NCBI RefSeq assembly: GCF_000001735.4
Contig: NC_003075.7
Coordinates: 4,217,001-4,281,000 of the forward strand
DNA length: 64,000 nucleotides
Origin: Arabidopsis thaliana
Taxonomy: Eukaryota > Streptophyta > Magnoliopsida > Brassicales > Brassicaceae
Direction: 5' to 3'
Position numbers and translations under genes: made by a program. Of the stretch, positions 15,540 to 51,924 are shown piece by piece; within the stretch, counting starts at the first letter, position 1; each line of letters begins with the position of its first letter. A model generated the notes under the pieces. The model was given only the letters and a program-made list of their open reading frames with translations, had not been told where the DNA came from and searched no databases.

Positions 15540-16624
15540 TCATTTGAGTACGTTCTATACTTCTATGAAAAAGATTGATTATCCATGTCATCAATCCACG
15601 TCATTACACATAATCCACGTCATCTGAAACCGCATAAACCTTTCGGTTTCCTCCCGAACAGTACTGTTCATCAGCGGAAAAAAAAAACTGTCGCTCTCTC
15701 TCTCGACGGGAAAACGATATCTAACCCTAATTTCGCCGCCGTTTTCTCTATCTCTCGTCTGTTTCGTCTGAAACTCTAACAGCGGTGTCGCATTGCAAGT
15801 TGAGTAAAGTCACATCCCTATCAATTCGCATATGAACTCAATTTGTCTAAGTTCCGGTAAGTCTATAACCTAACTTTACTTCAAATTTTCCGACAAGAAT
15901 CTGACATCTAAGTTCAATAGCAAGTGATTCCCGTCACTGAAACCGTTTTTCGAAAACTATCGCGATGTTATTGATGGTTTTTAACGATGCTTATTCCGGC
16001 TGGTTTTTGCCGTCGTTGATTGACATATGGTGTCTGATTTGTTATATCTATTTGATTTGATGGCTGAGTTACTATTTGTTTGCCGACTGATTTATAATTT
16101 ATCAATGCATCTGTGTCTGAGTTTGTTATATGATGTGGTTGAGTTATGATTTTATCAATGCATATGTGGCTGAGTTTGTTATATGATGTGGTTGAGTTAT
16201 GGTTTATCAATGCATTCGTGGCTGAGTTTGTTTTACGTTTTGTCTGAGTTATGGTTTAACCTTACATCCGTGGCCGAGTTTCTGTTATGATGTGGTTGAG
16301 TTTGTTTTATGTTTGGGCTGAGTTTCTGTTATGTTATGGCTGAGTTTGGTTTATGGTTTGGCTGAGTTATGTTATCTGTGGCTGAGTTGTTTTATGTTGT
16401 GGCTGAGTTTGTTTTACGTTTTATCTAAGTTATGGTTTAACCTTACATCCGTGGCCGAGTATCTGTTATGATGTGGCTGAGTTTGTTTTATGTTTTGGCT
16501 GAGTTTTTGTTATCCTATGGCTGAGTTTGGTTTATGGTTTGGCTGAGTTATGTTATCTGTGGCTGAGTTGTTTTATGTTGTTGCTGAGTTAATTTATGCT
16601 TACGGCTGATTTATGGTTTATCAG
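15540..16624 (+). other. 5' leader and first intron of the DUF1985-Ulp1 gene
   Basis: 15640-15856 is GC-richer and leader-like, and ends CCG|GTAAGT, a good splice donor. The intron runs to TTTATCAG|ATG at 16624, so the gene has a large 5' UTR intron. From about 16020 the intron is filled with GGCTGAGTTATG repeats. No separate gene is seen. Confidence 0.55.
16020..16620 (+). repeat. GGCTGAGTTATG motif array 1 (5' UTR intron)
   Basis: The words GGCTGAGTTATG, GGCTGAGTTTG, GGCCGAGTTTC and GTTGAGTTATG recur every 20-45 bases, about 20 times, with longer sub-duplications (TTTAACCTTACATCCGTGGC at about 16254 and 16436). All copies have the same orientation. Confidence 0.9.
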
Positions 16625-17440
16625 ATGTCTGAAGACCAAGCAAGGGATTACCGTCCAAGACTTTACCTAGCGGGGGATTCTAATCTAGAGGCTAAAGCCA
16701 TTAATCAGAACATCAAGATGGGAGATTTCCCTCTGATTAGAGAATCAATAGGACAAGATACATGAGATCAAATGAAAGAGACACCTCTTGGATTAATTGC
16801 TAAGCTAGTTAATAGCCATTTTCTTTGGTCTGGTAAGATTATACATTATCTACTCTACAGACAGTTAAGAATACTGAAAAAGGAGATTTGTTGTCTCGTG
16901 GCTGGTCAACCTATCAGGTTTGGCTTGAATGAATTTGGTCATATCACGCAGTTTAACACAGATCCACTACCGAGAGAACAGTTTAAGCATGCAGTGGACT
17001 ACAAAACGTTCTTCAGGGAATTGGGTGTGCCAACCGGTGAAGGTCTTAAGTTAGATGAACATAGGCGAGGCTTAGTAGTGTGCAGAGCATGGCCTCTTGA
17101 AAAGCGTATATGGTTTGGCTTGCATCCTAACTCTAGGATACCATTTGAGAGTGCCAAAAGAGTTTTTGATGACGAAACCATGAAGACTTATCCATGGGGT
17201 CGGTCAGCATTTGAAACCCTTGTTGTTTCTATAAAGTTGCCGAGGCCTATTGGCAAGTCGTACACCATCAGTGGTATGGCTTTCGTGTTACAAGCTTGGG
17301 TGTATGATTCAATCAACACCATTGGAGAGCGATTTGGGAACGTAGTCAAAGAGGATGAGATTTCGTTGCTTAGATGGGGTTGCAATCGTACCCGTACAAT
17401 AATAGAATCGGCCATTGCTGAAGATATCACAAACATAACG
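16625..17440 (+). pseudogene. DUF1985-Ulp1 transposon gene, N-terminal part
   Basis: The frame starts MSEDQARDYRPRLYLAGD after a splice acceptor. It has an in-frame TGA at 16763-16765 (in GQDT-DQMKETP), then runs open to about 17440. The region from HFLWSGKIIHYLLYRQL through GQPIRFGLNEFGHIT, SRIPFESAKRVFDDE and YPWGRSAFETLVVSIK is a clear DUF1985 domain. That domain is usually joined to Ulp1-like cysteine protease domains in plant Mutator-like elements (KI-MULE/VANDAL type). An LTR insertion starting at 17446 cuts the gene; the next exon resumes at about 35274. The TGA and later lesions make the gene non-functional as it stands. Confidence 0.8.
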
Positions 17441-18386
17441 ACTACTGCAAGTGCACAATATATATGAGTAGTACTTTAGGATCGAATCCACAAGGAGAGA
17501 AGTAGTTCAAAGAAATCCTTCAGAAGAGAGTGAAGCTAGGACCAAACAAAAAGAGAGGGGGTTGTTGTATGCAGTGAATAAGCAAAATAAAAGACAAGTA
17601 ACTAAAATAGACGATAAGCAATAAGAGAGAAGTGTTAGGTCTTTGGGGGTTTCTCCGGATATCATGGTTCAAAATAAAGGTATAGATCCCAATTTAGGTG
17701 ATAATATGGTTAGTTTTTTTACTTCCCAATTCTCGTTAGGTGAAAGCCGGCTATTCTCACTATACCTCGCCACTCAGTTGCCCACACGGCTAGGAGGTGC
17801 TAACATAGTTTCGAGATACAGATGAAAGCATTAAGTTCAAGTTTGATTCTAGTCCATAAGTCCCTATCACTTGGCGGGTGAGCAACGATTATAGTTCTTT
17901 ATTCAGTTGAGATAGTTCAAGCAATTATACAAGATTTTGCCAAGTATAAAATACCTAAGATCAAGTACAAGTTGGCGTTTCAGACATACCTGCATTAAGA
18001 TTAAATTCAACTAGAAAGAATAGTGTAAACGATCAAGCAAAACCATAGAAACCACCAACCTAAATCAGATCTAAAGTCCCCATGAATTCCCCTTTGAAAC
18101 CCCCTCAAACCCAACTAGAGATCTACTCGCTCATGGCAAAGGAGCTAATCAAAAGTTGGGTTGAGTAAGTCATAATAAAAAGACAAATAAAACTTAAAAG
18201 GGGTTCAGAGATTACTTCTTTGAATGTAGAACACAAGAGGCAAAGCTCCACCTTAAAGAATCTTATACAAAACGAAAGAGAAGAAGAGGGAGATGGTGAT
18301 CTTCGAGCTCAAGAGGTACGGTGGCGAGTTGGCAGCTCTCGGCGACGGCTAGGTTTTGCTTGTGATGAAGGCACACCTAGGGTTAG

Positions 18387-18735
18387 TAATGTAGGGAAAT
18401 ATACGATTGAAAGCTCTTGTATCAATGGATCAAGAGTATTCGTTCGTAGCTCGGATCTTTAGCTTTCTTAAGTATCTATGGATCAAAAGAAAGAAGAACT
18501 CAAAGACTTCAGATGAGAAAAGCTTCTCTTTTATAAAACGAAAACAACCAAGTTATAAGCTTACAAGAATAAGAGTATTTATACTCTCCTAAAAACGAAA
18601 ACCCTAAATGATGAAAGCTTGTCGACTAAGCAACACTAAACCGTCATTCAAAATAAAGAAAGCCCAACAAGAGTATTATGAAAACTTAAAAGGAAAAACC
18701 CAATAAAGAGATAGATGGATGATGACGCTACATCA
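18387..18735 (-). repeat. gypsy 3' LTR
   Basis: On the minus strand it begins TGATGTAGCGTCATC and ends CCCTACATTA; the terminal C-to-T change is shared by both copies. The pol stop codon TAG lies inside its first bases. Confidence 0.9.
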
Positions 18736-19296
18736 GGTCACCCGGGGTAGAAAGAAAATTTGTTCTCGAATATTCAGCTTCCTCACTAGCGACATAAGGA
18801 ACCAGATGTTTCACATTGAAGACGTCTGCGGTCTGCATATGTGGCGGCAATTGAAGGCGATACGCATTGTTGTTAATCTTCTCAAGAACTTGAAGTGGAC
18901 CAATCTTTCTTGACTTCAGCTTATTGTACGTTCCCGGTTTAAAACGATCTTTGGTCAGCACCGCCCAAACTAAGTCTCCCACATTAAACGTAACATCCCG
19001 ACGATGAGCATCATCAGCTTTCTTGTACTTCTCCGTTGCAATTTCAAGATTGGAATGGACCTTTTCATGAACAGCTGCAAAATCATCAACAAAATCACAG
19101 GCTCTACCATGAAAGCGAGTACGATCTGGAGAGATACCAAGATCTGCAGGGCAGCGAGGTAACAAACCATAGACCACTTGAAATGGACTAAACCCGGTAC
19201 TCCGATTAGAGCTCTATTGTGAGCAAACTCTGCCTGGCAAATAACCGTATCCCAAGATTTGATATTATCACCAACCAAACATCTCAACCAAATCAC
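18728..19296 (-). pseudogene. gypsy integrase C-terminal part
   Basis: Frames at 18970-19296 and 18728-19177 hold the end of the integrase. CQAEFAHNRA belongs to the end of the catalytic core; HRRDVTFNVGDLVWA and KLKSRKIGPLQVLEKI form the C-terminal SH3-like region; DVFNVKHLVPY follows. I see no clear chromodomain after it. The frame changes at about 19280 and again near 19170, so the protein is broken. The last codons run into the 3' LTR. Confidence 0.8.
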
Positions 19297-19873
19297 CCAA
19301 AGCTCGATTTGTCACTTCGGTTTGGCCATCGGTTTGAGGATGATAAGCCGAACTCATGTCCAATTTCGTACGTAGCAGCCGCCACAAAGATCTCCAAAAA
19401 TGACTTAGAAAACGAGAGTCACAATCCGATACAATAGACATAGGTAAACCATGAAGTTTATATACTTCCCGAAAGAACAAAATCGCAACTTGTACCGCAT
19501 CGGTGGTCTTCTTACACGGAATAAAATGCACCATCTTGGAAAAATGATCGACAACAACAAAGATGGAATCATTACCTCGTTGTGTTTGTGGTAGTCCAAG
19601 TACAAAATCCATGCTAATGTCAGTCCATGGCTGTGTTGGAATCGGAAGAGGCAAGTATAGGCCAGCATTAGAAGCTTTACCTTTAGCAGTTTGACAAACA
19701 CCACAACGAACAATGAATCTTTCAACATCACGTCTTAAGGTTGGCCAAAAATACGATGAGCTTATCAATTGAAGTGTGCCATCTCTTCCAACATGACCTT
19801 CTCCATGAAGCTCGCTAATTAACTTCAACCTCAAGCTACAATCAGGAATACATAGCCGAGAACCCCAAAACAA
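19268..19873 (-). pseudogene. gypsy integrase, zinc-binding and catalytic core
   Basis: The N-terminal HHCC finger shows HGEGHVGRDGT and CGVCQTAKG. The catalytic core follows with DFVLGLP (first Asp), SDCDSRFLSHFW (second Asp; the usual Arg after SD is Cys here) and HPQTDGQTEVTNR (Glu). Integrase joins the cDNA copy to host DNA. The frame is lost after ALGDLVEMF near 19275. Confidence 0.85.
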
Positions 19874-21362
19874 AAATCCATCATAAATGAGATACTCATC
19901 ACCAATCCCATTGGTCGCGTCATTCCAAATCTTAGCGAAAAAACATCAGTAGGATAAAATGTAGGAAGGACTTCAAAACCCGTAATTGACATATGAAATG
20001 TCGTCAAGAGAGAATGTCTTCGGCTTGAAGCATCGGCTACCTTGTTCAAAGTACCAGCTTTATGTTTAATCACAAAGGAGAATTGTTGCAAATATGCAAA
20101 CCAGGAAGCATGTCTCGCCGAAACCTTGTCTTGAGAACCCATATGTTTAAGAGCATCATGATCTGTATAAAGAACAAACTCACGATGAAAAAGATAATGC
20201 CGCCAATGTTTTATGGATTGAACCACGACATATAATTCAACATCATAAGTGCTGTAACGACCCCTTGCTCCAGCTATCTTCTCACTAAAAAATGCAACAG
20301 GTCGACCCAATTGACTCAATACGCCACCAATACCTGATTTTGAAGCGTCGCAATGGAGTTCAAATGCAACGTCAAAACAAGGAAGAACGAGAACCGGAGC
20401 TGTTGTTAACTTTTTCTTAATCATGTGAAATGCAGAATCAACTTCTTGTGTCCATGAAAACTTTGTAGCTTTCATACAATTTGTAATAGGCGCCATGATG
20501 CTACTAAAATGCGAGACAAAACGCCGGTAAAAATTTGTACCTGATTGTGGAGTTGGCCAAGACTCGATGGTACTTACCTTTGCCGAGTCCACTTTCAATC
20601 CATGTCTCGACACTATATTCGCCAAAAACAGAACTTCCTCCACACCAAACGAACACTTCTGCACAGCCCCAAATAATTTCTCTCGTCGCAGCACCAAGAG
20701 TACCTCACGTAAGTGACTAAGGTGGTCTTCAAGGGACAAACTGAAATTCAATATATCATCAAAGACAACTACAAAACGACCAATGAACGGGCGTAAGCTT
20801 GATTCATAACACGCATAAATGTGCTTGGCGCATTAGAGAGACCAAACGACATCACAAGCCATTCAAACAAACCTTCTCTTGTTTTAAACGCCGTTTTCCA
20901 CTCATCACTAGGACGTATACGGATTTGATGATATCCACTCTTAAGATCCAGCTTGGAAAATATCGTAGCAGAGCCAATTTGATCCAAAAGGTCATCCAAA
21001 CGCGGAATTGGAAATCAATAGCGAATTGTAATTTTATTGATCGCTCTACTATCGACACACATACACCAAGAACCATCCTTCTTAGGAATTAGCAATGCGG
21101 GAACAGCGCAAGGACTTAAGCTTTCACGGACATGCCCTTTAGAAAGAAGTTCTTCTACTTGCCTTCGTAATTCATCTTGTTCCATAGGACTCATGCGATA
21201 GTGTGGTCGATTAGGCAAAATTGCACTCGAAGCCAAGTCTATACAATGTTGAATATCACGTAATGGAGGCAATTCATTAAGTAACTCTTCAGGAAAAACA
21301 TCTTGAAATTCTGCTAACAATTCACGAAATGCGTCTCGTACCGCAGCGACAGGTGAAGACAT
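19831..21362 (-). pseudogene. gypsy reverse transcriptase and RNase H
   Basis: RT motifs: [16 protein letters not shown] and [14 protein letters not shown] (about 21190-21050), [22 protein letters not shown] (about 20950-20885), and the catalytic VVVFDDIL in place of the usual Y-x-DD box (about 20770). RNase H follows with HCDASKSGIGGVL, YSTYDVELYVVVQ and YTDHDALKH. An in-frame stop follows NKITIRY near 21015, and a frameshift lies between YARSLVVL and the FDD box near 20770. So the enzyme is inactive as encoded. Its N-terminal border with the protease region is split by the MITE at 21363-21912. Confidence 0.88.
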
Positions 21363-21912
21363 GTAAAAACTCTATAAATTAATAATGTCGGGACCGGAAA
21401 AATTTGTTAATTTAAAGAGGTATTAATTTATCGATAAATTAATAATTATTAATTGATAGAGATATTTTACAAATTTTTGTAATTTCTTACAAAATTTGAT
21501 TTAAAAAATAGGTTTTTCTATATAATCAATAATCTTTTTAAAATCAATTACAAGTATAAAACCATTATTAGGTTTAAAACAAAATAAACTTTTTGTACTT
21601 GGTAAAAATATTAGATCGGAACTCTACAAAAAATTAATTTAAATTGTATAAAAGAAATACTAGAGTCATATTTTACTAAATTTTTACATAATATATATTC
21701 ATAAATATAAATATATATATTCATAAATTTATACAATTATTAATTTATAATATTGATGGGACCATATATTTACATAAGATTTTCAAAAAAAGTTACTATC
21801 TTATTAATTTATCAATTTGTATCAATTTTTACACTGGTCCCAACTCGGAATCGGAAGAATTTATTAATTTATAGAAATTATTAATTTATCTAGTATTAAT
21901 TTATAGAGACTG
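21363..21912. mobile_element. Emigrant-like (pogo/Tc1-mariner) MITE
   Basis: About 550 bp of AT-rich DNA, with left end GTAAAAACTCTATAAATTAATA and right end TATTAATTTATAGAGACTG followed by TA. The inverted ends match the Arabidopsis Emigrant terminus (CAGTAAAACCTCTATAAATT...) as I remember it, with TA as target. The left TA-CA has lost about three bases. GTCGGGACC near the left end and GGTCCCAAC near the right end are a second inverted pair. It interrupts gypsy coding sequence between the protease-RT linker and RT, and has no reading frame of its own. Confidence 0.75.
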
Positions 21913-22117
21913 TACTTGTTTCCATCATTAGCACAAATGCTACTTCCTCCTCTTGAAGTTCTTCGAACAGTTGAGACTTATTTATTAAGAGTACAGGTTT
22001 CGTCTCTTCCAAAGACACAGATTTCTTCTCAATATCTTGACTTGTAACCAATGGCTCAGAACACTTTTGAGATTGCAATAACGTAAGGCGTTTTCCTTCG
22101 TATGAAAAACTATGTGT
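21913..22117 (-). pseudogene. gypsy protease-RT linker fragment
   Basis: The minus frame THSFSYEGKRLTLLQSQK ... LLINKSQLFEELQEE is the spacer normally found between protease and RT in this gypsy type. It is stranded between the MITE (right end 21912) and the Athila insertion (TSD at 22118). Its reading continues the frame that stops at 32774 on the other side of the Athila element. Confidence 0.75.
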
Positions 22118-22122
22118 GTTTG

Positions 22123-23749
22123 TGATATGTCTATAATTTGCATGATTTAGGCATTCATTCTTCACCACTTTGTCATTGTTTCATCCATAAATCATCTCAT
22201 TAGGAGTCGTTTTAGTGTGTTTTACATACTTAGGACGATTTTGCATTAGGATTGCATGTGCATGGCATATTTGGTTGTTTTCAGGTATTTTGGATGCTTT
22301 TGGAGTTCAAACAGAGGAAAAACAGAATATGAAGTCGGAATGCCCAATGACGCCTTCAGCAAAAGTACTCTATCGCAGCCTCGGAGCCCTGCCAGGGCAA
22401 ATCACTCTATCGCAACCCCGGAGAAGCAAGCAGCTCAGTTTCACTCAATCGCGAAGCCGGAGGAATCACCCCATCAGAACCACTCGATCACCACTCGACC
22501 ACCAAGAAGCCTATCTGCTCTTTCTGCACTCAACCAGACAAGCTGAGAACAAAGAATAGAAGAGAAGCCGAAGAAGCCACTCGATCACCACCTCATGACA
22601 TCCACTCGATCGCACTCGATCACAGGATCGCTGGACCATTCAATCTCGACTTCACTGCATCTTAGTCGATTGCAAGACGGAGCCCCTAAAGCCCAGTTTG
22701 ATCAATGACATACTCGATCACTAGGAAGCTCATTTCAGCCCGTCAGATGCCAATGACATATTCGGTCGCAGGATCATGACGTGAAGATTCGCTATATATT
22801 TAGTTTCCTTATTTGTTTCATTTCTCGCTTATATAAACTGCCTCTTAGGGTTTTCCCTAGGGCATCCGTTATTATCTCGCTTTTACATTTTCGCAACTTT
22901 CATAGCCGCAATGTTTCTCCTGCGACTTTGTATTTTCACTTTCAAGTATTTGATATTAAGTTTTCGTTTAAGTCTTTCGTCATTTCTGTTATCATGTTTT
23001 CAATCGTTGCTTTGCTATTGTCTTTGATTATGTCTGAGTAGTGAACTGTATTTCTGAGGATGGGATAGAATAGTTGTGGTTTACTTGGTCGTTTTAGGTT
23101 GTTGAGTTTAGAATACTAGAATCCCTTCTGGATTAGTTGCGCTTATTGCTTGTTTCACTGGCTAATGTGGAGTATGAGTCCAGACGTCCAGCGCTCATAA
23201 GGCGTTTAAGCGTTGAATCCTATTAATTCCAGAGATATCTGACTCTACCCCAAGGGATTGGCTGTAGAGAGGGTATTGACTTTAACATGTTGATTCGATA
23301 ATGCCTGCTTAGTTAGAGATCGCTAAAGGGATTTAGGTCAGTGTCTAGCTTTGCTTGAGGATTTCTATCACGGGAGTGAATTAATCTGTTGTTGAACTTG
23401 TTGTCTAGGGATAGCTTCTGTGAAGTTTTCTCAACCGCCTGAATAGATTAAGTAGACCACACTATTCGATTATCCCATCCTTAGGAATCGTTTATCCATT
23501 TGATTGCCTGTTATCATTTCTGCTTTGTCATTCACTTGCCTGCTATTGCCATTTCTGCTTTTAGTTTCATTTCATTTCTGTTATTGCATACTAGGAATGT
23601 TAGAACCAACCAACTTTCTTCTTGGCTTGACTTAGAGTTTTCTGATCATATCTCATCTGTTTGCATCACACCGGATTGGATTGACATCCTAAAATAGTAC
23701 AACGACAAGATAGTGTTTTAGGGATTAATTGAGTAAAATCCTACTATCA
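22123..23749 (+). repeat. Athila 1 5' LTR
   Basis: Contains several ACTCGATC(G/A) words (about 22480-22770) and a TATATAAACTGCC box at about 22832, a likely TATA region. Ends CTACTATCA directly before the PBS. Confidence 0.92.
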
Positions 23750-23752
23750 ATT

Positions 23753-23765
23753 TGGCGCCGTAGCC
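23753..23765 (+). other. Athila 1 primer binding site
   Basis: TGGCGCCGTAGCC lies three bases after the 5' LTR and matches the tRNA-Asp-type site TGGCGCCGTTGCC used by Athila, with one change. Confidence 0.8.
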
Positions 23766-23941
23766 AATTTAGGGTTTGTTTGCTATATTTGAGATCATTA
23801 GAAACGTTAAGATCAAGTTCGTTTTTGTTACACAAGTTACTAACATTGTGCCTTTTCTGTCTTTGTGTTTCAGGTACCTTGCAACCTGCTTTACAGAAGT
23901 ATCTCTGATTCGTCTATTATATCCCGGCTGCTATCTGTTGC

Positions 23942-26745
23942 ATGCATACACGGTCACAAGGAAATCTGAACCTCCTATTCAACGATAACATCGACAGTAT
24001 TGCTCGCCAACAAAGAGAACACACAGAAACCGACACAATGGCTGACGTTGTAGATGAGCAAGAGCAACCTACCAACATTGGTGCTGGTGACTTCCCTCAC
24101 AACCACAACCAGCGTCATGGAATTGTTCCACCTCCAGTACAGAATAATAACTTTGAGATCAAAAGCGGTCTCATTGCCATGGTTCAGGGGAACAAGTTTC
24201 ATGGCCTACCAATGGAGGATCCGCTAGATCATCTTGACAAGTTTGAAAGGCTCTGTGGCCATACTAAAATCAATGGAGTTAGTGAAGATGGTTTCAAGCT
24301 TCGCTTGTTTCCATTTTCACTTGGAGATAAAGCCTATATGTGGGAAAAGACGCTACCCCAGGGATCAATCACGACCTGGGATGACTGCAAAAAGGCCTTC
24401 TTGGCAAAATTATTCTCGAACTCCAGGACTGCAAGACTCCAGAACGAGATATCCGGATTCACTCAGAAGCAAAACGAAAGCTTCTGTGAAGCTTGGGAGC
24501 GCTTTAAGGGTTATCAAACCAAATGCCCTCATCACGGATTTAAGGAAACTTCTCTTCTCAGACACTTTACAGAGGCGTCCTACCTAAGATACGTATGCTC
24601 CTTGACACCGCCTCCAACGGGAATTTCTTGAACAAGGATATCGAAGACGGATGGGAGCTAGTTGAAAACTAGGCTCAGTCAGATGGCAATTACAACGAGG
24701 ATTATGACAAAAGCATCCACACCAGTACTGAATCTGATGACAAGCACCGCCGAGAGATTAAAGCTCTCCATGACAAAATCGACAAACTCCTCCAAGTGCA
24801 GCAGAAGCATGTTCACTTCGCCTCTGAAGACGAAGTATTCGAAATTCAAGAGGGGGAGAATGATCAGAGCGCTAAAATCAATTATGTTCAGAACCAAGGC
24901 GGCTACAACAAAGGGTACAACAATTACAGACCCAACCCAAATCTGTCATACAGAAGCACAAATGTCGCCAATCCTCAGGACCAAGTTTACCCTCAACAGT
25001 AGCAGCAAAACCAACCCAAACCGTTTGTTACTTACAACCACAGCCAAGGGTTCGTTCCTAAGAAGCAGTTCCAAGGAGGGTATCAACTACAACAGCCACC
25101 ACCTGGTTTCACACCACAACAACATCAGGCCTCTGCACCCCAGGAATCAGACATCAAGAATATGCTCCAACAGATCATGCAAGGCCAAGCCGCAGGGGTA
25201 ATGGAATCCGCAAAGAAGCTGGCTGACTTAAACAACAAATTTGACAGACAGTTCAATGAACTGAGTAGCAGGTTGGAATCATTGAACACAAGGGTACGAT
25301 ATCTGGACGGCATTACTACTTCCCCACCTGTTACAAACAACCCATGCCAGCTTCCAGGAAAAGCAATCCAGAACCCTAAGGAGTATGCCACTGCACACGC
25401 AATCACTATCAGACATGAGCGAGAGCTGCCAACTCGACATGTCTCTACATCAAACACTGAGGACAGTGTAATTCAAGAAGGGGACGCTTCCACTCAGATT
25501 GAAGTCTCTGTTGCTGAGATCGGCTATTCAGCTCAACCTTTCTATCAGGCTCAGTCTGACTTGGAGGAGAAGGCTGCTATAATCGAGAGGATGGTAAAAC
25601 GATTAAAGCCAGATCCATCACCCTCACTTGCTCTTCCATGGACGTTCAGGAAAGCTTGGAAAAGTAGATATGAATCTCTGGCAGAAAAACAACTTGATGA
25701 GATGGAAGCTGTGATGCCCTTAGTAGAAGTCCTCAAGTTGATTTCAGACCCTCACAAAGATGTGAGAAACCTGATACTGGAAAGGCTCAACATATATCAG
25801 GATTCAGATGACGAAGACGATGTCATTATGCATCAAGCCGCTGGTGAGAGGATTATTCAAGAGAAGCTGGAAGATCCTGGATCTTTCACTCTGCCATGTT
25901 CCATTAGGCAATTGACTTTCAGCAATTGGCTATGTGATCTAGGAGCCTCAGTCAGTTTAATGCCACTCTTTGTGGCAAGGAAGCTGGGATTCGTTCAGTA
26001 CAAGCCCTGTGACATCACCTTGATCCTTGCTAATAGAACTTCAAGGAGACCTTTCAGCATTCTAGAGAACGTGCCAGTAATGGTAGATGGAGTTGAGGTA
26101 CCCATTGATTTTGTCGTGCTTGAAATGGATGAAGAGTCTAAGGATCCTCTAATCTTAGGAAGACCTTTCTTAGCCTCAGTGGGAGCAGTAATAGATGTCA
26201 GATATGGTAAGATTGATCTCAACCTTGGGAGGCATGTCAAGTTACAGTTTGACATCAACAAATTTCCGACAAGGTCACCAACATAAGGAAAAACCTTAGA
26301 GATCCAGAGAGCGGTTCCAAGTGAAGGCTTTGAGATCAAAAGAGGGAAAGAGCAAATTTCGGTTCAAACTCCGCCATCGAACTCGACTACTCGATCGAGT
26401 ATACCCTCCTCACTTGATTGGCTGGAACTCAAAAGGAAGACTGATTTCCAGAACAGAACCATTAAGAAGCTGAGCTACACTGTTGAAAAGCTTAGAGACA
26501 AACTAAGTCGAATGCAAAAGGAGGTTCAACCCCAGCTCAAACATGACAAGATTTCAAGAAAGGAGATCACCTGGGATTGGTTAGAAGAGGAAGACTATCC
26601 TCCAGAGGAGGAAGCAGCCTACTATGAGGAAAGAAGAATTGAATACTCAGCTGTGCAACTGTCAAGGGAGGATGCTGAGTATGATGATGATATCAGTGAA
26701 GAGGAGGACTTCTCAAGCTCCCTCTGTCACATTTTCTCCACTTGA
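23942..26745 (+). pseudogene. Athila 1 gag-protease with coiled-coil/acidic tail
   Basis: The frame starts [15 protein letters not shown]. The gag core runs from [20 protein letters not shown] through [13 protein letters not shown] to [11 protein letters not shown] and is the Retrotrans_gag type. A glutamine/proline-rich linker follows, then the aspartic protease with [13 protein letters not shown] and [11 protein letters not shown]. After a TAA at 26284 the same frame continues with a heptad-like stretch ([20 protein letters not shown]) and an acidic end ([23 protein letters not shown]), stop at 26743. Lesions: a frameshift near 24560, TAG near 24670, TAG near 25000 and TAA at 26284. No pol domain is present. 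Element 2 has the same tail. Confidence 0.85.
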
Positions 26746-26787
26746 TTAGTGTGAGGAGTCAAGCTAGAGACTCTAAACAAGCTCACT

Positions 26788-37978: not shown

Positions 37979-37980
37979 AG

Positions 37981-39825: not shown

Positions 39826-40797
39826 CTAAGCTTTGAGAGGCTAATCTCCTTATCTCTTTTGTACTTGGGAGTAAACCCTCTAGAGACTCCCTTTAGAGAA
39901 GATCTTTCTTACTCTTTCTCTTGTTATTTTCATTATTGATTTCTTATTCAGACTATGATTTGTGTTCCTTTGATCATGTTTGTGTAGCTTTCTTGTTAGG
40001 TTCGGTGTTTCTCATTAGGGATTTAGATGATTTAGTAGATTGTCCCCTTGCTAGGTTATCTGTTAGGATTCTTCATCTTTAGTTCTTCTTAATGCTAGTT
40101 CTAGAGTAGCTAACTAGAATTTGATACCAGATAATAGATATACACGTCATAGGTATCTGTTATCAGATCTAGTATTTGATTAGCCTGGTCTATAGGTGTG
40201 TAATAAGAATTGGCCTATTTAGTAAGGTGAACTTTATTGAACTCGTTTATAATGCATGCTTAAGTATAAGATTTCTCGGCTTCTCTGGTTATTCTTAGCT
40301 GTAGGCATAGGGAGTTTCGCGGAACGCCACTGGTCATTCCACAATTATAGTTTGAGTTTAAGAACGGTTTGGTAATAACCTAGCTATCACTAGATCTACT
40401 AATCATCTATTTATGAGAATACCCTAAGTCTGACTCTTTTCCCATTTGATTTACATCTTGATATTTATTGCTTTTCTTTGTTTCTTATTTTATAATCTAT
40501 TACTTTAGCTTAATTCGATATCCATAGTCTATTGTGTGATCCGAGAGCTTAGTGAAATTCGACCCTTAAGTACTGCAATCGATCTCTTAATTGGAGAGTG
40601 GTCTTAAGGCAATTTGACCTACATCTAATTTGGCGTCGTTGCCGAAGTTCTCTACGATTCACCATTAGATTAGTATTAGAATTTTGTCTAAGCTTTTGTT
40701 TTTGTTTTTCTTTTTAGTTACTTACATTTTCTCTTTTCTTTTTCTTGTGTGTTCCAGGTGTTTGTCTAATCACAGAACCAGAATTAAGCGAGAAACA

Positions 40798-41720: not shown

Positions 41721-42169
41721 TTGAAGCATAGTCATCACCAAGAGGTACTTTTAAGCTGGGATCACTGCTATAAGTCCAGGCACTGCTGTCACGTCACCCA
41801 CTGCACCTGTCATACTTCATCCACCTCCTAAACGGCCAAGGTACTCATCTCCTCCTCCTTAACCTCCAGATGTCATCAATAAGAGTTTAAAATTTCCAAA
41901 AACTGTTTTACGGTTAAGCAAGCCACGAGTTTCTCGTCAAGCGCTTGTTCGTTATTTTGATGATTGTGTATGAGAAAGGAGTATTCCAACCATACCTGAG
42001 TCCCACCCTGTTGATGCTCCTCTCTTCCTAGATAGACCTCATGTGCTAACTGCTTATACGCCAGCATGGATGATGAGAGGTCTTTCTCCGCAATATTTAC
42101 TGCCACCTTTTGATCCACCTGATCCCATACTCCATCAAAGTCAAGCTATTGACTATAAACAAGCGCTTA

Positions 42170-42185
42170 GTGGGAAGCAACCCAC
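42170..42185 (+). other. Conserved hairpin (Athila 3)
   Basis: GTGGG-AAGCAA-CCCAC follows AAGCGCTTA. It is the counterpart of the TGGGAGGAAGTCCCA hairpin in Athila 1 and 2. Confidence 0.6.
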
Positions 42186-43173
42186 TGATATTATTTTCTT
42201 TTTCTTTTCCTTTTTTTTTATTTTTTTATTTTTCTCGCTTACTCTTGATTTGAATGCCACTAGAGATAGTAACGTTTAAGTTTGGGGGAGGCAGTTACTA
42301 ACTACGTTTTTCGTTTTTGAGTCTTATTCTTACTCTTATTTTTCTTATTTTTGAGTCGTTTTATTGAGTCAAAATTTTGTTAGGAATTATGATCTCTATT
42401 CTTTAGATTATTGCTTGGTTGATTAATGCTGTAGGTTCGACTCAATCCAACTTTTGGAAAATCTAAATGGCAAACCAACAAACTTGAGAATCCATTAAGG
42501 CTGGAGCTAATCTCACTGCTCTGCCTTTTACCTCATCAAATTGGTTAGTGTTCATAGAACTTGACTCCTTGTTCATACATGATATTGAGACCTATGTGAA
42601 AAAGAAAAGTATTCCTCTCCCCTTATAAAAAAAAGAAAAAAAGAAAGCAAGAGATTGATATGATTTTCGGTAGTGTACAGGGGTAGGAATGTTTCCCATG
42701 ACCCATTATTATACATTATTAGGAATGATCAATTACAAAGGTTAGAAATATGCCGAGGGTGTCAATCCAGTATGCGAGCTCCCCTTTGTTTACTCTTTAA
42801 AAAGAATAAGTCTGGGGGAGAGAAAGAACACCAAAATAAAATAAAATATAAAGAGTGGTCAATTTATCATGGTATAGTACAAGAATGAGTCTAGAAGGTT
42901 CTTGAATATTAGCTTGCTTGATGAGACCCAGCGATGAAAGCCTGGTGGATATAGTTGTGGAACTTAGGTATGGAATCTAGAATGTTGTGTATGCTTGCAG
43001 AGAAGTACATGTTGGTAAGGATTTGATTAGAACTGCTACGCATATGGATTTGGTTAAAATGATCATGGCAATAGACTAGAGAATATTGGGAGTTCTTTTG
43101 TTTTCAAACCTCTTCCACGGGTTCGGCTTTTGTGTTTTGCTTTAGGGCAAGCAAAAGGTAAGTTTGGGGGAGT
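42186..43173 (+). other. Athila 3 3' non-coding region
   Basis: No gene. PPT-like tracts lie at 42278-42290, 42808-42820 (one change) and 43160-43172. The stem-loop TTTTGCTT...AAGCAAAA (43135-43156) lies just before the last. Confidence 0.7.
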
Positions 43174-44201
43174 TGATATATCCCTATTTTTACCGGTTTT
43201 AACTATGTTTTAGGTATAAGTTTTAAAGTCTATTTGTTATTTTTAAAGTCTTTTTTAGTCATTTTCAGGTCTTTACACGTTTGGGATTCAATTGCACATA
43301 ATGGAGCATTCTGGAGGAAAACAGAGAACTTATGCTATGCTGCAGAAGAAATCTGGAGACTAAAAATCGCGTAGGTGTCGAACGACACCACCCCTTGTGT
43401 CGAGCGACACCAATACCTGATGGCAATTCGAAGACGTAACTTATTGAAATTTTGAAGATTTCTAAATTCGGCCTAGAACTTTCCCTTATTTTTAAAGAAG
43501 GCCCATCACGTGTTAGGTCATATATATATATATATAGTTTTTAAGGTTATTGTTTAGACCTAAGCTTGGAGAGGATAATCTCCTTATGTCTTTTGTACTT
43601 GGGAGCAAAACCCTGTGGAGACTCCCTTTAGAGAAGATCTTTCTTACTCTTTCTCTTGTTATTTTCATTATTGATTTCTTATTCAGACTATAATTTGTGT
43701 TCCTTTGATCATGTTGTAGCTTTCTTGTTAGGTTTAGCGTTTCTCATTAGGGATTTAGATGATTTAGTAGATTGCCCCCTTGCTAGGTTATCTGTTAGGA
43801 TTCTTCATCTTTAGTTGTTCTTAATGCTAGTTCTAGGTATAAGATTTCTTGGCTTCTCTGGTTATTCTTAGCTCTGGGCATAGGGAGTTTTGCGGAATGC
43901 TACCGGTCATTCCACAATTAGAGTTTGAGTTTAAGAACGGTTCAATAACAACCTAGCTATCACTAGCTCTACTAATCATCTATTTTATGAGAATACCCTA
44001 AGCTTGACTCTTTTCCCATCTGATTTACATCTTGATATTTATTGCTTTTCTTTGTTTCTTATTTTATAATCTATTGCTTTAGCTTAATTTGATATCCATC
44101 GTCTATTGTGTGACCTGAGAGCTTTGTGGAATTCGACCCTTAAGTACTGGAATCAATCTCTTATTTGAGATAGTGGTCTTAAGGCAATTTGACCTACATC
44201 A
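43174..44201 (+). repeat. Athila 3 3' LTR
   Basis: Starts TGATATATCCCTATTTT after the PPT and ends GACCTACATCA before TTATC. A segment present in the 5' copy (about 40080-40260) is missing here, so it is shorter. Confidence 0.88.
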
Positions 44202-44206
44202 TTATC

Positions 44207-46125
44207 GTTATTTTACGCTTGAGTTATCTTTACGTTTATGCAAGCGAAGGAAGTTGTAGATTTGGTGGTAGAGAAAGATGCTGGTATTGTTGGGGTCAGT
44301 AGGAATCTTGATGGCAAATTTGTTCAGACCACTGATGTCAACCAAGCTAACATTGATTTCATTGAGACATCTCCTGGTGCCCGGACTTTACGCGCTTTGA
44401 CGAAGACGAGGAGAAATTCCAAAGCGAAGGCAGATTCAAAGAAGTAAGCTTTCGTTAAAGAGAAAACCGCAAATGAGCCTACCGTCAAAGAGCCAGCCGC
44501 CAAAAAGAAAAGAGGAAGAAAGGCAGCGGCGCTTCCTCCTGCTCCACTCACAAAGGTGCCTACGAAGATGAAGATAGAAGATGTTGCTTCTGTCCCCAAT
44601 AGAGTTGAGGAAGTCATTGAAAATGCTGACAAGATTGACGGTGAGAAGGTAGATGATGATGATTCTATATTTGATATCATAGACCAGTTACTAGCTGAAG
44701 ACAATCGCATGCTACATGAGTCTGATGAAGATGTGGAGGAAACCATGAGGCATGGGAGAGTAAAAGCTAAGAGGAGAGAAACAGTTAAGCTGGCCCCAAA
44801 TGGGAGTTCATTAATTTCCAGTCGATAATTTGACCACAAAGACTTTTCCATTTATCGGAGACAATGGACTGAGCTGCATGAGGAAGGGTTGTGTGCCTTC
44901 AGGAGGAATCTATGATCCTATGACACTGGTTGATCCGGCCAAATTGCAGAAACTTAAGGATTATTTGTTAAGCTCCAACAAGTATGTTCCTTTATACTTT
45001 ATTAAGTTGTTAAGTACGGCATGCTTACACTATTTGTGTATATTATAACTTTTTATTATTTGTTAGGGATATCCCGCTGGACAGTGGAGAAGACGATGTT
45101 GACTTCTACGGAGTTATCATGACCGAAAGAAAGGACTGGCCAGACCGAAAATATGGATTGTTGTCCGATAGTGTAAGTTATTGTTATATTCTGTTTGAGT
45201 TTTTTATACTTTATGGCTGAGTTATCGTGTTGTTTAGGCTGTGTGGTGGTATTGTTTTGTTTGAGTTAAAATAAATTATGGCTGGTTTATTCTGGTGTTT
45301 AGGCTTAGTTGTACTTGGTTATTGTTAAGTTATGGTATTGTACTATTTAAGTTAAAGTAAATTATGGCTTATTTATTCTGATGTTTAGGCTGAGTTGTAC
45401 TTGGTTATGGCTGAGTTATTGGTGTGTTTTGTCTAAGTAGTTTTTATTTTTTGTACAGCAAATGGCTGCGTATCTGAAAGTCCTCGCCATGAGGTACAAG
45501 CGAGATCCCTGCCCATACCACAACCAACGCGTCATGATTCTATACCCGTGGTTCACGACTTATTGGGTGACTGAGTACAGAGAGTTCAAGATCAAAACGA
45601 AGAAGTTTACTTTCAAAAACACCGCGTATGAATTATGGGTTAACGGTACGACAGCAGAAGTCCCGACATGGATGAAGTGGGTAACAGATGTGGATCACTT
45701 GTATTTGATCCACCAAATTGGGTGACGCTTCACGTGAACTTGCTTAGGTCGCACATCGATTGCTATGATTGCATCGTCGGAGAGCATACACCAGAAAGCG
45801 AGTTAAAAATACTGGAAGCTTGTAGGTCGTTAACGAGGATGATTCCACAGATGATGAACAAACTGGTTCCTTCCACAGTCCGTAAACCGAACTACGACCA
45901 ATTTTAATTTCGGCGGAAGAACAAGAAACTGGTCCCGCAAAACAGAGTAGCTAGGGATTGCGGCGTTTTCACGTGTTAGATTCTTGAATGTTTATTGCTT
46001 GGTGTAAATTTTGATGGCATTTGTGATGCAAATATCCAGGCTCTACAGGTTAAGATGGCAGCAGAGATCTACGATGAGGCACCGGAAAGGATGCTTCACA
46101 GTTTGAAGAGACGTGATTGGCCTTT
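44207..46125 (+). pseudogene. DUF1985-Ulp1 gene, C-terminal Ulp1 (C48) protease part
   Basis: Exons: about 44232-44981, 45067-45172 and 45459-46125, with clean GT-AG borders. The first has a nuclear-targeting-like basic patch (AAKKKRGRKAAA) and an acidic helix region, with stops near 44445 and 44826. The last two carry the Ulp1-like cysteine protease: KDWPDRKYGLLSDS, MAAYLKVLAMRY, then the NWVTLHVNL region where the family normally has the catalytic His before Trp, SHIDCYDCI (Asp region) and QNRVARDCGVFTC (Gln and catalytic Cys, with Arg for the usual Gly). Frameshift near 45700, TAA at 45905 and TAG near 45977. Active members cleave SUMO-type conjugates; this copy cannot. Confidence 0.78.
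45180..45455 (+). repeat. GGCTGAGTTAT motif array 3 (intron)
   Basis: Intron between protease exons with repeated TGGCTGAGTTAT, TAGGCTGAGTTG and GTTTGAGTTA words, same orientation as the other arrays. Confidence 0.8.
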
Positions 46126-46648
46126 TCGAACATATGTCTGTGTTTTTGGATTTTTGAGCATGTGATTGTACTAAATATTGACACTTTAGGATTGATAATG
46201 CTTTATGTTTGTATGAATCTATGATGTTGAATGTACGATGTTCAAATTATAAGTTAAATCGATGTTTGACTGAGTAATTAGAACGAGATGGCTGACTTCT
46301 CACCGCACAATTCGTGTTATGGCTGAGTTATTCTAACGGTTAAGGCATACTTATTGTAGATTAATTCAATGTTTGGATGAGTTATTAGAATGTGGTGGTT
46401 GACTTATCATCGCACAAATCGTGTTATGGCTGAGTTATTATAACGAGTTGGCGGGCGTATCGTAGATTAATTCAATGTATGGATGAGTTATTAGAACGTG
46501 GTGGCTGACTTATCATCCCGCAAATCATGTTATGGCTAAGTTATTATAATGAGATGGCTGACTTAATTAAAATAGGCAGTACAACGAAGTCCAATTCAAA
46601 AACAGACAGTACAAGGAAGTCCAATTGAAAAACCAAATTTAGCTAAGC
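46126..46648 (+). repeat. GGCTGAGTTATT motif array 4 (spacer)
   Basis: No gene. From about 46265 a ~115-base unit (ATGGCTGAGTTATT ... GATTAATTCAATGT-TGGATGAGTTATTAGAACG-G-TGG-TGACTTATC) repeats about three times. It separates the Ulp1 gene from the convergent GRF gene. Confidence 0.82.
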
Positions 46649-47244
46649 TCACGAATACTTGTTCATGCTCTCATACTTCTTCTCTAGCGTTTCAAATTTC
46701 TTTTCCATAAGAAAGATCTTTTCTGCCTGACCCTCGACGTGCTTCTTGGCTGCTACCAAATCCTGCTTCATCTCATTCTTCTCCTCTTTTATCTTGTCAA
46801 ACTCGTCACACAATGGAACAGCACACCACCTCTTGAAACCGCAGTCTCGACCGGGACCCTTATAAATCAGACATAAATCATAGGGATAGAAAAATAAAAA
46901 TAAAAAAAGAATCATAACTCAAAAGATGCTTACATCTGATATTTCATACGGACAACTAAAATAAAGTTTTCCGCTTGTAATAGGATCACGAGAAGTGGCA
47001 ACGACAACCGCTGCACTACAACCACACTCGATCGGAACACCCTTATCACGCCTCCTGTTTTCGCCGTACACCATTCTCATCCTTGTTTCCATACGATCCA
47101 GTTCCTACATTACCACCATACAATAGAAAGATGGCTAACGATTTGCACTATTCAGAAGGTCGAGATAAATACCTCATTTCCTTCTGAAACCGATTTCTCA
47201 TCAACACTAGAGTCGGCGAGGACAAGAGATCTCTGCACCATCAT
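46649..47244 (-). CDS. GRF-type zinc-finger protein (minus strand)
   Basis: Three exons with GT-AG borders: 47244-47174, about 47107-46934 and about 46862-46649. The start is MMVQRSLVLADSSVDEKSVS. The finger is CGCSAAVVVATS ... GKLYFSCPYE ... DCGFKRWCAV, i.e. C-x-C, C and C ligands as in plant GRF zinc fingers. It is followed by a charged coiled coil (KIKEEKNEMKQDLVAAKK to ETLEKKYESM). GRF proteins bind nucleic acid in other settings, and small GRF/coiled-coil proteins are common passengers of plant transposons. It lacks the C-terminal membrane segment of its plus-strand relative at 48825. No stop is seen, so it could be intact. Confidence 0.6.
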
Positions 47245-47344
47245 CTTGTCTTCAACTAGTAGGGCACTAAAGCACTAAATCTATATAGTCATTTATGCTA
47301 AAAAGCACTAATCAAACGACGGCGTCGTGTATTGGTGAATAAAT

Positions 47345-47395
47345 GTAGAAGTGGCTGAGTTATAAAAGCTTTGTGGCTGAGTTACAAACATATTA
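47345..47395 (+). repeat. GGCTGAGTTA motif copies
   Basis: Two copies, GTGGCTGAGTTATAAAAG and GTGGCTGAGTTACAAAC, 5' of the minus-strand GRF gene. Confidence 0.75.
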
Positions 47396-47590
47396 ATATT
47401 CTTTATTATATCATTATCGAGATTACAAAAAGTGTTTTTTATGGGGAACCCCCAACAATAATTGGGTCTATTTTCACACAAACACACCAACAATTAATAA
47501 TCGAAATAATTCAAATTAGTAAAAAATTAATTCGTATAACTAACCTTCAAATATTCAAATTTTTTTGTTTGGCGGTAGAATACTAATACG

Positions 47591-47797: not shown

Positions 47798-47807
47798 CTA
47801 ATACGAT

Positions 47808-48615
47808 ACGGCCGAGTTATGACAGAAGATTTCGTGGTTTGACCGAGTTATGAGAAAACAAATGTTATTAATAGGCTCATTTGTGTACTAGCGTTATTGT
47901 TGGTTCTATTAATGTCAAGATCGATAATATCAAAACAGAATAAACTTTTTACACTAAGAGTCCATTGACAATCTATGTTGATCAAACTTGTAGGAATGGA
48001 AGTTAACTAGAGCTTAACAATGCATGGGAAAGGTGTTGGATAAATTATATAGAGTACAAACATTAGCTAGTTTCATGATCACTAGTTGGAAAATGATTAT
48101 AATAAGTGAATTACTAGATTATACCAACTAATGGCTTAAGAAAGCAACATTCATCATTTGGCCGAGTTATAACAGTCACATGGCTTAGATATGTCTACGT
48201 TACGGCTGATTTATACAGGAAGATTTTGTGGTTTGGCCGAGTTATGAAAAAAAACAAATGTTATTAATAGGCCCATTTGTATACTAGCATTATTATTGGT
48301 TCTATTAATGTCAAGATCTGTAATATCAAAACAGAATAAATTTTGTACACTAAGAGCCCATTGACAATCTCATTTGATTAAACTTCTAGGAATGGAAGTT
48401 AACTAGAGCTTAACAATGCATGGGTATGGTGTTGGATCAATTATAAAGAGTACAAACATTAACTAGTTTCATGATCACTAGTTGGAAAGTGATTATAATA
48501 AGTGTATTAATTGATAGTACCAACTAATGGCTTAAGAAAGAAACATTCGTGGTTTGGCCGATTTATAACAGTCACATGGCTTAGATATGTCTACGTGACG
48601 GCTGATTTATTACAA
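47808..48615. repeat. ~394-bp tandem duplication containing GGCCGAGTTAT copies
   Basis: GGTTTG(A/G)CCGAGTTATGA followed by ACAAATGTTATTAATAGGC begins at about 47837 and 48231. Both units end with CACATGGCTTAGATATGTCTACG at about 48180 and 48573. Several copies of the GGC(T/C)GAGTTAT motif lie inside. A 24-bp unit (TATTGACCAAATACGACGTC) is also doubled at about 48636-48680. No gene. Confidence 0.82.
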
Positions 48616-48824
48616 AATACAGAGAAAGAGTCTCCGTTATTGACCAAATACGACGTCTCCGTTATTGACCAAATACGACGTCGTTTTTGACATAAACGAA
48701 AGATCCAATCTAATAAATCCCTAAAATCAAACCCTAAGCTTGAAAATTCCAATTTCCTTTTCCCGATTTGAGCTCGATTTCTTCTTATTTTTCTTCTTCG
48801 AATTCCCCATCTCTAGCTAAAGAA

Positions 48825-49361
48825 ATGAGTAGTAATTCTGTGAATTCGATTTCAAGTACTCAATACGTAAGCCGTTGGGGATGTGCGTTTCCATCAAAGT
48901 GTCATTGCGGATTAGACGTGGTTATCTATACATCGACGTCAGTATAGAACCCTGGAAGACCATACTTCCGTTGTCCTACGGGTAAAGATGTAAGTATAAT
49001 TGATTTTGGGTTTTATTTGTTTTAGTTGATAATTGGTTTGTGATTGAAAATGCAGGACCATTTGTTTAAATGGGCCGAAGATGGTACATACGAAGAGGTT
49101 GTAGACAGTTTGCCGAAATTGTCCACCATTGACAATGAGAACAACGCAGCCAAATCCGAGGTTGCAGTCGAGATCGAAGCGTTACAAGTGATGGTGAAAG
49201 AACTGAAGGAAGAAGGAATAAGGAGCAAAAGGGAAAACTAGACATCTAAATTGATGATCAAACTTTGCTTTTTGTGTCTTGGCTTTGTTATCATTTTCAT
49301 TGTTCTTAGTATCCTAATGTTCCTTAAAAACAAAGAACAGAGGCTTCTTCTTGGCTTCTAG
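48825..49361 (+). pseudogene. GRF zinc-finger/membrane-anchor protein, two stops
   Basis: Exons 48825-48989 and 49056-49361. Starts MSSNSVNSISSTQYVSRWG. The finger has KCHCGLDVVIY, then NPGRPYFRCP and DHLFKWAEDG. A coiled coil follows (EVAVEIEALQVMVKELKEE), then in the same frame, after a TAG at 49239, a hydrophobic segment (CFLCLGFVIIFIVLSILMF), a likely membrane anchor. This GRF-coiled coil-TM plan is common in Arabidopsis transposon-associated proteins. A second in-frame stop, TAG at 48945, lies inside the finger. It is orientated towards the Ptta-like gene on the other strand. Confidence 0.7.
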
Positions 49362-49437: not shown

Positions 49438-49620
49438 TGTGGTTTGGGAGTAGTTAATCTAATGTTATGTCTGAGTTAGGCTAATATTATTGATGAGTTA
49501 ATCCAATGTTATGGCTGAGTTAAGCTAATGTTGTGGCTGAGTTAACCTATTGATATGGTAGAGTTAAGCTATTCATATGGTTGAGTTAAGTTTTAGTTAC
49601 GCCTGATTTATGATAAATTT
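49438..49620 (+). repeat. GGCTGAGTTA motif array (3' spacer)
   Basis: About eight copies (ATGTCTGAGTTAGGC, ATGGCTGAGTTAAGC, GTGGCTGAGTTAACC, ATGGTTGAGTTAAG) at ~20-25 base spacing between the convergent GRF and Ptta-like genes. Confidence 0.85.
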
Positions 49621-51310
49621 TAACAAGTGACAACAAGTGATTTTATAGAGAAGACGATTAAACCATTACATTTTAAGTTCATAGGAAAGACAAGTAAGAG
49701 ATACAAAAGCATTAAAGATATGAAACCGACATCATCTGGGCCAAATTCAATAAACATGTCAACCAAATCATTCCAAACTGTTGTAGTCATCCACTCCAGC
49801 TTGTCGCAATCACGCGCCCATCCCCGTTTCAACGCACACATATGTTAGGTTTTATGAGACAAAGCTCACAAGAGAGAGTAGACAATCACTTGGTGATTGA
49901 ATCTCCCTTTACCAATACAAAGGGAACTTGCTCTCAAGAGCAAGAGACCATCAATTTGTGATAGAATCCACGCAATTAACCACCAATATATCCGAATATA
50001 ATAGGGAGTAAATCATTTATATGAAGGAGGAAGCATCTAGTTTGAGTCTAATCCTTGTCTAGTACAACAACACTTGTAGTTTGTGTACTTAAGATAAAGA
50101 GGATTTAGAATCAGTAATCTAGATCTTAAGTACTAAATAAAGAAGAGTTTAGAGTGTATTTAAGAGTGTGTATGACAAGCAATAGGCTGCCTTAAGGCAG
50201 CCCTAATTCGTGTAACACTATCTCTCTACATTGTAACTCTTTTGTTAAACACAAGTAAAGAAGAGAGAGCTACACAAAATGATATAAAAGATGTCTATTG
50301 TTCTTGTTGTTTTTACAATGAGAAACACCGCCTTAACAAGCAAAGAGGAGAGTTCGAACTCTACACAAAGACCTAAGAGAGAAAGCTTGAAGAGAGAGAT
50401 GGTGAAACCCAAGAGTGAAAGTGACATGTCCTAACGTTTATACACAGATGTGACCTCTTGAATTCAAACTTGTTTCCCTCTTCTTGTCTAAAACGAATGG
50501 GCATCTTCCTTGGCCCTTCTTTCTTTCTTTTGGGTCTCAACACACATTCAAGCCCACCTCTTAAACTCTAGCCTTGGCATTATGCACATAAACATGTATG
50601 TACGGGTTTGAGTTGACTTTACCGTACAGACAGACAGTTTTCTTCTTGACCGAGGCTTGATCTTCTTGGTAGACATTGACTTGATCTTCACGGCTCTTCC
50701 CTTGGCTTATTTAGCTTTCCTTAGAGCCACAATTCTTGCCTTCATTAGCCTTTGATGAGGAAATATTTGGCCTTGTCCTTATGACTTCGGCCTTGAGGCC
50801 TTTCTACTTCTCTTCTTTATTGGAGGTGTCTCGGCCTCATCGGCCTCTCTCTCCATTTCCTCATACACACTAATAACATATTGTCTCGGTTCAACGTTCT
50901 ACCTACCAAATTAAACTGCGTCTACACCGTTAGAGTGTGCCTTGAATCCCACGTGTAATTACGCTATAAAGATAGAAAATAGTAAGAATTTGGTTTATGG
51001 TTTATTGACTGTGCTTTAAATCAAAGATCGATGCTTACCATGAGGGGAAAAAACCATCGTCCCTTGACCTCAACGGGAGTCAAGCGGTACGTCGGCCACG
51101 CATGGTGAAAGTTGCATTGAAGTATCTCTACAATCGCGACCGAGATTTGGTGATTGTATCTGAACCACGTAATAGTGGTTTTGTCAACTCATGTACCTAA
51201 ACCAGGGTTTAGAACTGGAAGATTCACCCGATCAGGAGCGGTGAGTATCGCTTCAACATCTTTGAGAAACTGTTAATGAAAGAAACAACGGCCATGTCGT
51301 TAGGAAGAGA
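49621..51310 (-). pseudogene. Ptta/En-Spm-like transposase-associated gene, interrupted
   Basis: Minus-strand pieces at about 51265-51035 read FLKDVEAILTAPDRVNLPVL ... TITWFRYNHQISVAIVEILQ ... HHAWPTYRLTPVEVKGRWF. This is the pattern of the plant En/Spm-associated domain (LPxLxP, TTWFxxxxxVxxxI, FxxAxPxWxxTPxxVKxxWF). An exon with NYTWDSRH (about 50960) follows, and after the 49844-50876 insertion CALKRGWARDCDKLEW ... WNDLVDMFIEFGPDD. TGA near 51198 and TAG near 50930 break it. I assign the family from motif spacing only. Confidence 0.45.
49844..50876. mobile_element. 1-kb insertion flanked by CATAT, probable solo LTR
   Basis: CATAT at 49839-49843 and 50877-50881 is a 5-bp duplication. The inserted DNA starts GTTAGGTTTTATGAG and ends ACACACTAATAA. 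With a neighbouring base from each flank it reads TGTTAG...AATAACA, which looks LTR-like but is then out of register with the duplication. It has no coding domain. Confidence 0.6.
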
Positions 51311-51924
51311 GGATGAGACATGTAATGATGTGATGAAGAAACATATATATAGAGAAAAAAGACAAGGAAAGGAATACGAAAAATGGGAAAATGGTCCTAG
51401 GTTACGGCTGAGTTTGGCGAGAAACTGTACTGTTACGGATTAGTTATGCGGGAAAGATAGGGAACGGAATATGAAAGGTTGCGTCTCTAACTGTTTGACG
51501 GGAAAATTTTATAGGTTACTGTTGAGTTTGGGGGAAAATGTACTATTACAGATGAGTTATGCGGGAAATGTAACAATGTTACGGCTTAGTTGTCAAAAAT
51601 TATAAAAAGGATAAGAAACGGAATACGAAAGGTTGCGTCTCTAACTGTTTGGCGGGAAAATGTACTTTTATGGCTGAGTTACCCGCATTACGGCTGAGTT
51701 ATCAATAGTTATAATGCTGACGGTTACATTCGATTTACTAACTAACCGATGTTAATTCGGTTTTTATTCAATGGTTACATCCAGCCAAATTAAAAAAGTT
51801 TCCCTTCCTATAAAAAATTGGCTGCTCCCGTAGACTCCCCAAACCTAAACTCTCACAAACAGAAGATCTAAGGTTGCCCTAATCAAATCTATTTTTTTAT
51901 TTTTCTTCGACCCTGAATTTCACC
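51311..51924 (+). repeat. GGCTGAGTTATC array and right part of the motif element
   Basis: Between about 51400 and 51710 there are TTACGGCTGAGTTTGGCG, GATGAGTTATGCGGG, TATGGCTGAGTTACC and TTACGGCTGAGTTATC copies with a duplicated ~170-base block (GGAATACGAAAGGTTGCGTC, 51466 and 51616). Motif copies stop here. 51750-51924 is the promoter-like region of the next RPA1-like gene. The right border of the motif element must lie near 51720-51800 but I cannot fix it. Confidence 0.65.

Follow-up and report, generated by a model that had tools for sequence, protein, structure and literature searches.

A same-orientation motif array in a fragmented Arabidopsis VANDAL-like transposon, probable target of the family's own DUF1985-type protein

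We analysed a 64,000-nucleotide stretch of Arabidopsis thaliana DNA (NC_003075.7, positions 4,217,001 to 4,281,000 of the forward strand; hereafter the window), which holds a broken transposon whose non-coding DNA carries arrays of a short word around a VANC-type gene, with coding regions for DUF1985 and an Ulp1-like peptidase (C48). BLAST comparison with ten relatives places the element at 15568-52499, as a collinear series of pieces with insertions between them (Table 1). The original prediction had assigned the arrays to one element, and the collinear pieces bear this out, although the element continues past the window edge. The insertions starting at 17430 and 52500 include long terminal repeat (LTR) elements with ATHILA ORF-1 regions, recognised by Pfam matches and LTR-like pairs, and it is an ATHILA-type LTR element that cuts the transposon at 52500. 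A transposase-end piece at C4:4288697-4292588 is next in order and has the matching orientation, so the window copy seems to be spread over ~60 kb, and the outlying piece seems, from its place in the order, to be a remnant of this same copy. The first ~170 bases of the element are missing from the window copy, and its DUF1985 exon, which shares 74-78% identity with 11 further long exons of the genome, aligns without some residues present in the relatives. With its VANC-type gene broken, only the arrays of this copy could still act, as a target.

The word first noticed in the window was GGC(T/C)GAGTTAT(G/C). Exact copies of the 12-mer GGCYGAGTTATS number 7, always on the + strand (0.02 expected); allowing up to two mismatches raises this to 64 (9.3 expected), and most window sites are variants with one or two mismatches. 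De novo counting in the ten relatives gave GGCTGAGTTA as the core of the motif (250 occurrences against 0.69 expected; 11 on the opposite strand), with weaker flanks of GTTA(T/C) on the 5' side and T on the 3' side. Recurrence of the word was confirmed but its spelling was not, as position 4 of the 12-mer is T in 94% of sites and the final G/C is not conserved. Counting core matches in the window as GGCTGAGTTA with at most one mismatch, we found 49 on the + strand and one on the − strand in the element pieces (9,962 bases), where 300 dinucleotide shuffles gave a mean of 0.45 and a maximum of 3. Eight of the clusters originally listed contain core matches, all on the + strand; the cluster at 44207-44231 has only one match, at 44217, to the 12-mer with two mismatches. 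As predicted, the word avoids coding exons and later insertions, with no core match in four coding stretches of the element and three in the 54 kb of the window outside the element pieces. Arrays occupy most non-coding parts; that they fill every one is slightly too strong a statement because some stretches, such as part of 48655-49361, have no match.

Table 1. Element pieces, motif arrays, coding regions and insertions in the window
Feature	Coordinates	Strand	Evidence
5' element piece: leader array and DUF1985 exon	15568..17429	+	collinear with relatives, 69-82% identity
Array 1, 18 core matches, upstream of DUF1985 exon	16062..16613	+	match starts 16062-16604
DUF1985 exon of VANC-type gene, open frame of 233 aa	16766..17464	+	PF09331, 51.6 bits
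Later insertions including LTR retroelements with ATHILA ORF-1 region; outside array system	17430..37433	.	collinearity gap, LTR-like pairs, Pfam
Element piece: second exon region, then intron array	37434..38268	+	collinearity
Array 2, 7 core matches	37986..38267	+	match starts 37986-38258
Later insertion(s) with internal repeats	38269..44201	.	collinearity gap, repeats
Element piece: third exon region, Ulp1/C48 coding region, intron arrays	44202..46451	+	collinearity
Array 3, 3 core matches, intron before C48 exon	45215..45418	+	match starts 45215-45409; 86-bp repeat
Peptidase_C48 (Ulp1) coding region, reading frame disrupted by stops and frame changes	45441..46162	+	PF02902 pieces, 47.1 and 33 bits; translations
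Array 4, 7 core matches, 53/106-bp repeats	46321..46565	+	match starts 46321-46556
Element piece downstream of VANC-type gene; 2 core matches at 47353-47384	46601..47560	+	collinearity; match starts 47353-47375
Element spacer, 396-bp repeat pair, 5 core matches	47803..49361	+	collinearity; match starts 47810-48600
Element spacer, 22-bp period array, 4 core matches	49452..49843	+	collinearity; match starts 49469-49579
Element piece; core matches 3 forward at 51406-51701, 1 reverse at 52121	50877..52499	+	forward match starts 51406-51692

Across the 119.66-Mb genome (7 contigs), the exact core occurs 288 times, all listed through four sub-patterns (98+33+73+84), against 15 for the reversed word. 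Taking as clade members those DUF1985 pieces with at least 63% identity in the genome comparison of the exon, we found 93 exact matches within 5 kb of them (0.54 expected), 92 of which lie on the strand of the gene, and 182 within 20 kb (2.0 expected). Each of the 12 near-full clade exons, that of the window among them, has an exact match within 5 kb; of the 139 other DUF1985 matches in a family search that scored 150 of 297 candidates, two do (C3:15052828 and C2:4522620). The 12-mer is found 102 times on the strand of the gene, and twice on the opposite strand, in 20-kb stretches surrounding ten of the other eleven long exons. The proposed co-occurrence of arrays and DUF1985 genes is borne out for one clade, and the motif is not equally common in unrelated DNA. 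The largest cluster of exact matches (45 of the 288) is a family copy at C2:5198272-5205999 with its array expanded in units of ~746 bp, and one exact match lies on a contig other than C1-C5 (C6:301540).

Two relatives have both ends in view and measure 14.56 and 16.94 kb. Each has a 9-bp target-site duplication (tattatata and atttaattt), and comparison by eye gives ends of GAAATAATTCC or GAACTAATTCC, and CAGTTAATCTCCC, with no terminal inverted repeat (TIR) seen by eye in these two. C5_13286k encodes DUF1985 (81.7 bits), C48 downstream on the same strand (208.5 bits), a Mutator-like element (MULE) transposase (PF10551, 78.7 bits) and a SWIM finger (PF04434, 39.3 bits). The transposase with its SWIM finger, and duplications of 9 bp without a long TIR in 2/2 such relatives, point to a VANDAL, that is, a non-TIR MULE. 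Some predicted homologues, P0045 for one, contain DUF1985 and C48 together, so that the two domains probably belong to one gene, a trait of the Ulp1-carrying (KIU) VANDALs. The model of a DUF1985 homologue from this clade matches the fold seen in the crystal structure of VANC21 bound to its target DNA, and the clade is accordingly predicted to share the VANC DNA-binding fold. A weak match to PF10536 (plant mobile domain; E ~0.001, below the cut-off) in homologue P0002 and the C2_10607k exon overlaps and follows DUF1985.

Both of the relatives with two ends in view bear the arrays densely, as the original prediction implied, and flanks of 15.5 and 13.1 kb contain no core match. With exon limits taken from open frames and trimmed by hand, coding DNA holds 3 of 93 matches in C5_13286k (33.7 expected) and 4 of 124 in C2_10607k (37.5 expected). 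The three VANC introns of C5_13286k contain 23 of its 93 matches and spacers a further 29, and its VANC half has 53 forward matches to 1 reverse. Dense same-orientation arrays thus lie in the family's own non-coding DNA, with mixed orientation in the transposase half. Three derivatives (L028, L029 and L030) are made up of an array, ~1.1 kb from the 3' end and sequence from the 5' end; they show no match to VANC exons and contain 25, 30 and 30 matches in ~2.2 kb, the far end reaching the edge of the fetched stretch. C2:4213k and C5:17867k resemble them, by spacing of exact matches alone. A sister family at two loci (L023 and L024) has a DUF1985 that is ~40% identical, with C48 and SWIM also found in L023, and the motif is absent from the 10 kb read at each locus.

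Of 496 neighbour spacings between 11 and 80 bp, 209 fall at 20-22 bp, and the distribution peaks again at 31, 42 and 53 bp. The resultant at a period of 10.5 is 0.61 over the full set, the highest among periods tried from 9.5 to 13, though shared descent of the copies inflates these statistics. Collapsed per element (192 values) it is 0.40, and in the window alone 0.81 (n=36); in both cases 0 of 5000 jittered sets were as high. Among 17 indel-free tandem arrays, several of them homologous between copies, agreement is 93.8% in core columns against 86.7% in spacer columns; the core has the higher value in 15 arrays, the same value in one and the lower in one.

VANC proteins carry DUF1985 and DUF287 (Hosaka 2017, PMC5735166), which supports the statement in the original prediction that DUF1985-type proteins are among those encoded by VANDALs. 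VANC motifs (YAGTATTAY for VANC21; AGTTGTCC/AGTTGTAC for VANC6) lie in non-coding DNA, in tandem repeats and in arrays of one orientation, and VANC21 binds its targets in vivo and in vitro, VANC6 a motif-rich region in vitro (PMC5735166). A VANC1 system was added for VANDAL1, 2 and 22 (PMC10398659), and Ulp1-carrying VANDALs are described in a 2026 review, citing Sasaki 2022, as recognising motifs found only in other KIU VANDALs (PMC13317346). This clade resembles VANC21/VANDAL21 (Hiun) in its element-encoded DUF1985 protein, in short same-orientation arrays in mainly non-coding DNA (PMC5735166) and in the predicted fold, but its DUF1985 is very distant and its gene also has C48. YAGTATTAY was rejected as its target, with 0 copies in the window and 0-2 per 20-kb relative. 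The VANC6 system (VANDAL6, 7, 8 and 17) has the same layout, and its words share AGTT with this core (PMC5735166; PMC10398659). The VANC6 words were likewise rejected, occurring 4 times in the window on both strands (two in array 3) and only 7 (AGTTGTCC) and 5 (AGTTGTAC) times, 12 in total and on both strands, in 200 kb of the ten relatives; the presumed VANC6 locus has 0 matches to GGCTGAGTTA. The Ulp1-carrying Kaonashi/KIU elements also combine DUF1985 and C48 coding within a non-TIR MULE with transposase; the review passages cited here name no motif to set beside GGCTGAGTTA (PMC13317346).

DUF1985 and C48 also occur together at L022 (C1:17044000-17053999), the presumed VANC1 locus; it differs in having 1 core match in 10 kb and a DUF1985 on a long separate branch. 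The palindrome GTACGTAC occurs 8 times at this locus and may be the motif of the VANC1 system. As a control, the same k-mer counting at the VANC21 locus ranked the published VANC21 word second.

Taken together, the arrays are very probably cis-acting targets of the family's own VANC-type protein. By analogy with the VANC21, VANC6 and VANC1 work, the protein of this clade would bind GGCTGAGTTA and cause loss of methylation. An intact copy, when expressed, would supply a DUF1985 domain that binds units in one orientation at helical-turn spacing, whether in introns, in spacers or at the ends of family members, even where a member lacks the gene; binding would exclude or reverse silencing there, so that the transposase gene could be expressed. 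The original prediction of a DUF1985-type anti-silencing factor gains from the clade link, the arrays in relatives and the modelled fold, while the binding itself we infer.

Several observations weigh against this interpretation. Of the exact matches, 106 of 288 lie >20 kb from any clade DUF1985 piece, and 30 of the 67 clusters have a single match; of the 21 clade loci, 3 lack any exact match within 15 kb, and these are fragments. The transposase half of C5_13286k, transcribed in the opposite direction, has 10 + and 26 − matches, and the helical phase is broken by spacings of 24 bp (40 cases) and 28 bp (17 cases). Because the copies are related by descent, array position, spacing and core conservation cannot be treated as independent. 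Likeness of fold to VANC21 does not show that the same DNA word is read, and both forward AGTTGTAC copies of the window, a VANC6 word, sit in the 86-bp repeat of array 3. The k-mer method can also miss a true motif, since the published VANC6 word, present in four copies at the presumed VANC6 locus, was not among the 24 best there.

The word might instead be bound by the MULE transposase or an accessory transposition protein and serve transposition rather than anti-silencing, for which the subterminal repeats of En/Spm or Ac are a model. Density near both ends, and retention in short derivatives with end sequence and no VANC exon, would suit this, but most sites are internal (as in the VANC introns and spacers of C5_13286k), and VANC21 is bound both in vivo and in vitro by VANC21 arrays laid out in this way, while VANC6 binds a motif-rich region in vitro (PMC5735166), making a role in transposition unlikely. 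Neutral growth, in which slippage multiplied some arbitrary seed carried along by the spreading element and no protein binds it, would account for the many arrays that Tandem Repeats Finder scores as tandem repeats and for expansions as large as that at C2:5198272-5205999. We consider it very improbable, as the same 10-base core recurs in repeats of periods 22, 44, 53, 86, 106, 181 and 396, avoids coding DNA, tends to helical spacing and is more constant than the spacer in 15/17 arrays. Proteins of the bZIP family recognise TGAGTCA-type sites, and since the core contains TGAGT, a host factor of this kind could be what the element exploits; that the word goes with one transposon clade, and that the reader in the related system is encoded by the element itself (PMC5735166), leaves such a factor hardly credible.

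Sasaki 2022 (EMBO J) reportedly covers at least ten VANC systems with stress on motif density and helical periodicity, and there is a fair chance that the GGCTGAGTTA motif is already in it. It is possible, though doubtful, that GGCTGAGTTA and the DUF1985-C48 clade make up a VANC/target pair not described so far, which would follow two further rules, namely that units tend to helical phase and that motif direction mostly follows transcription of the nearest element gene. The sister family, with the same domains and without the word, would then form with this one a natural specificity-switch pair.

Elsewhere in the window, the insertion at 38272-44167 has several internal direct repeats (D1, D10, D11, D13, D19, D20) and resembles sequence near the relatives C4_3558k and C3_12107k. 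Degenerate GGTTTAG repeats, of plant telomere type, lie at 1913-2288, far from a chromosome end.

The general picture of VANC anti-silencing is already published and unchanged by GGCTGAGTTA, so the surprise is limited. If our interpretation is right, one clearly delimited protein/DNA-word pair would be added to the VANC family, and the sister family, without the word at its two loci, together with the solved VANC21-DNA structure, would allow a test of word switching. It would also suggest that a transposon may stay a target after its gene has broken down, and would give sequence-specific epigenome editing one more candidate address word.
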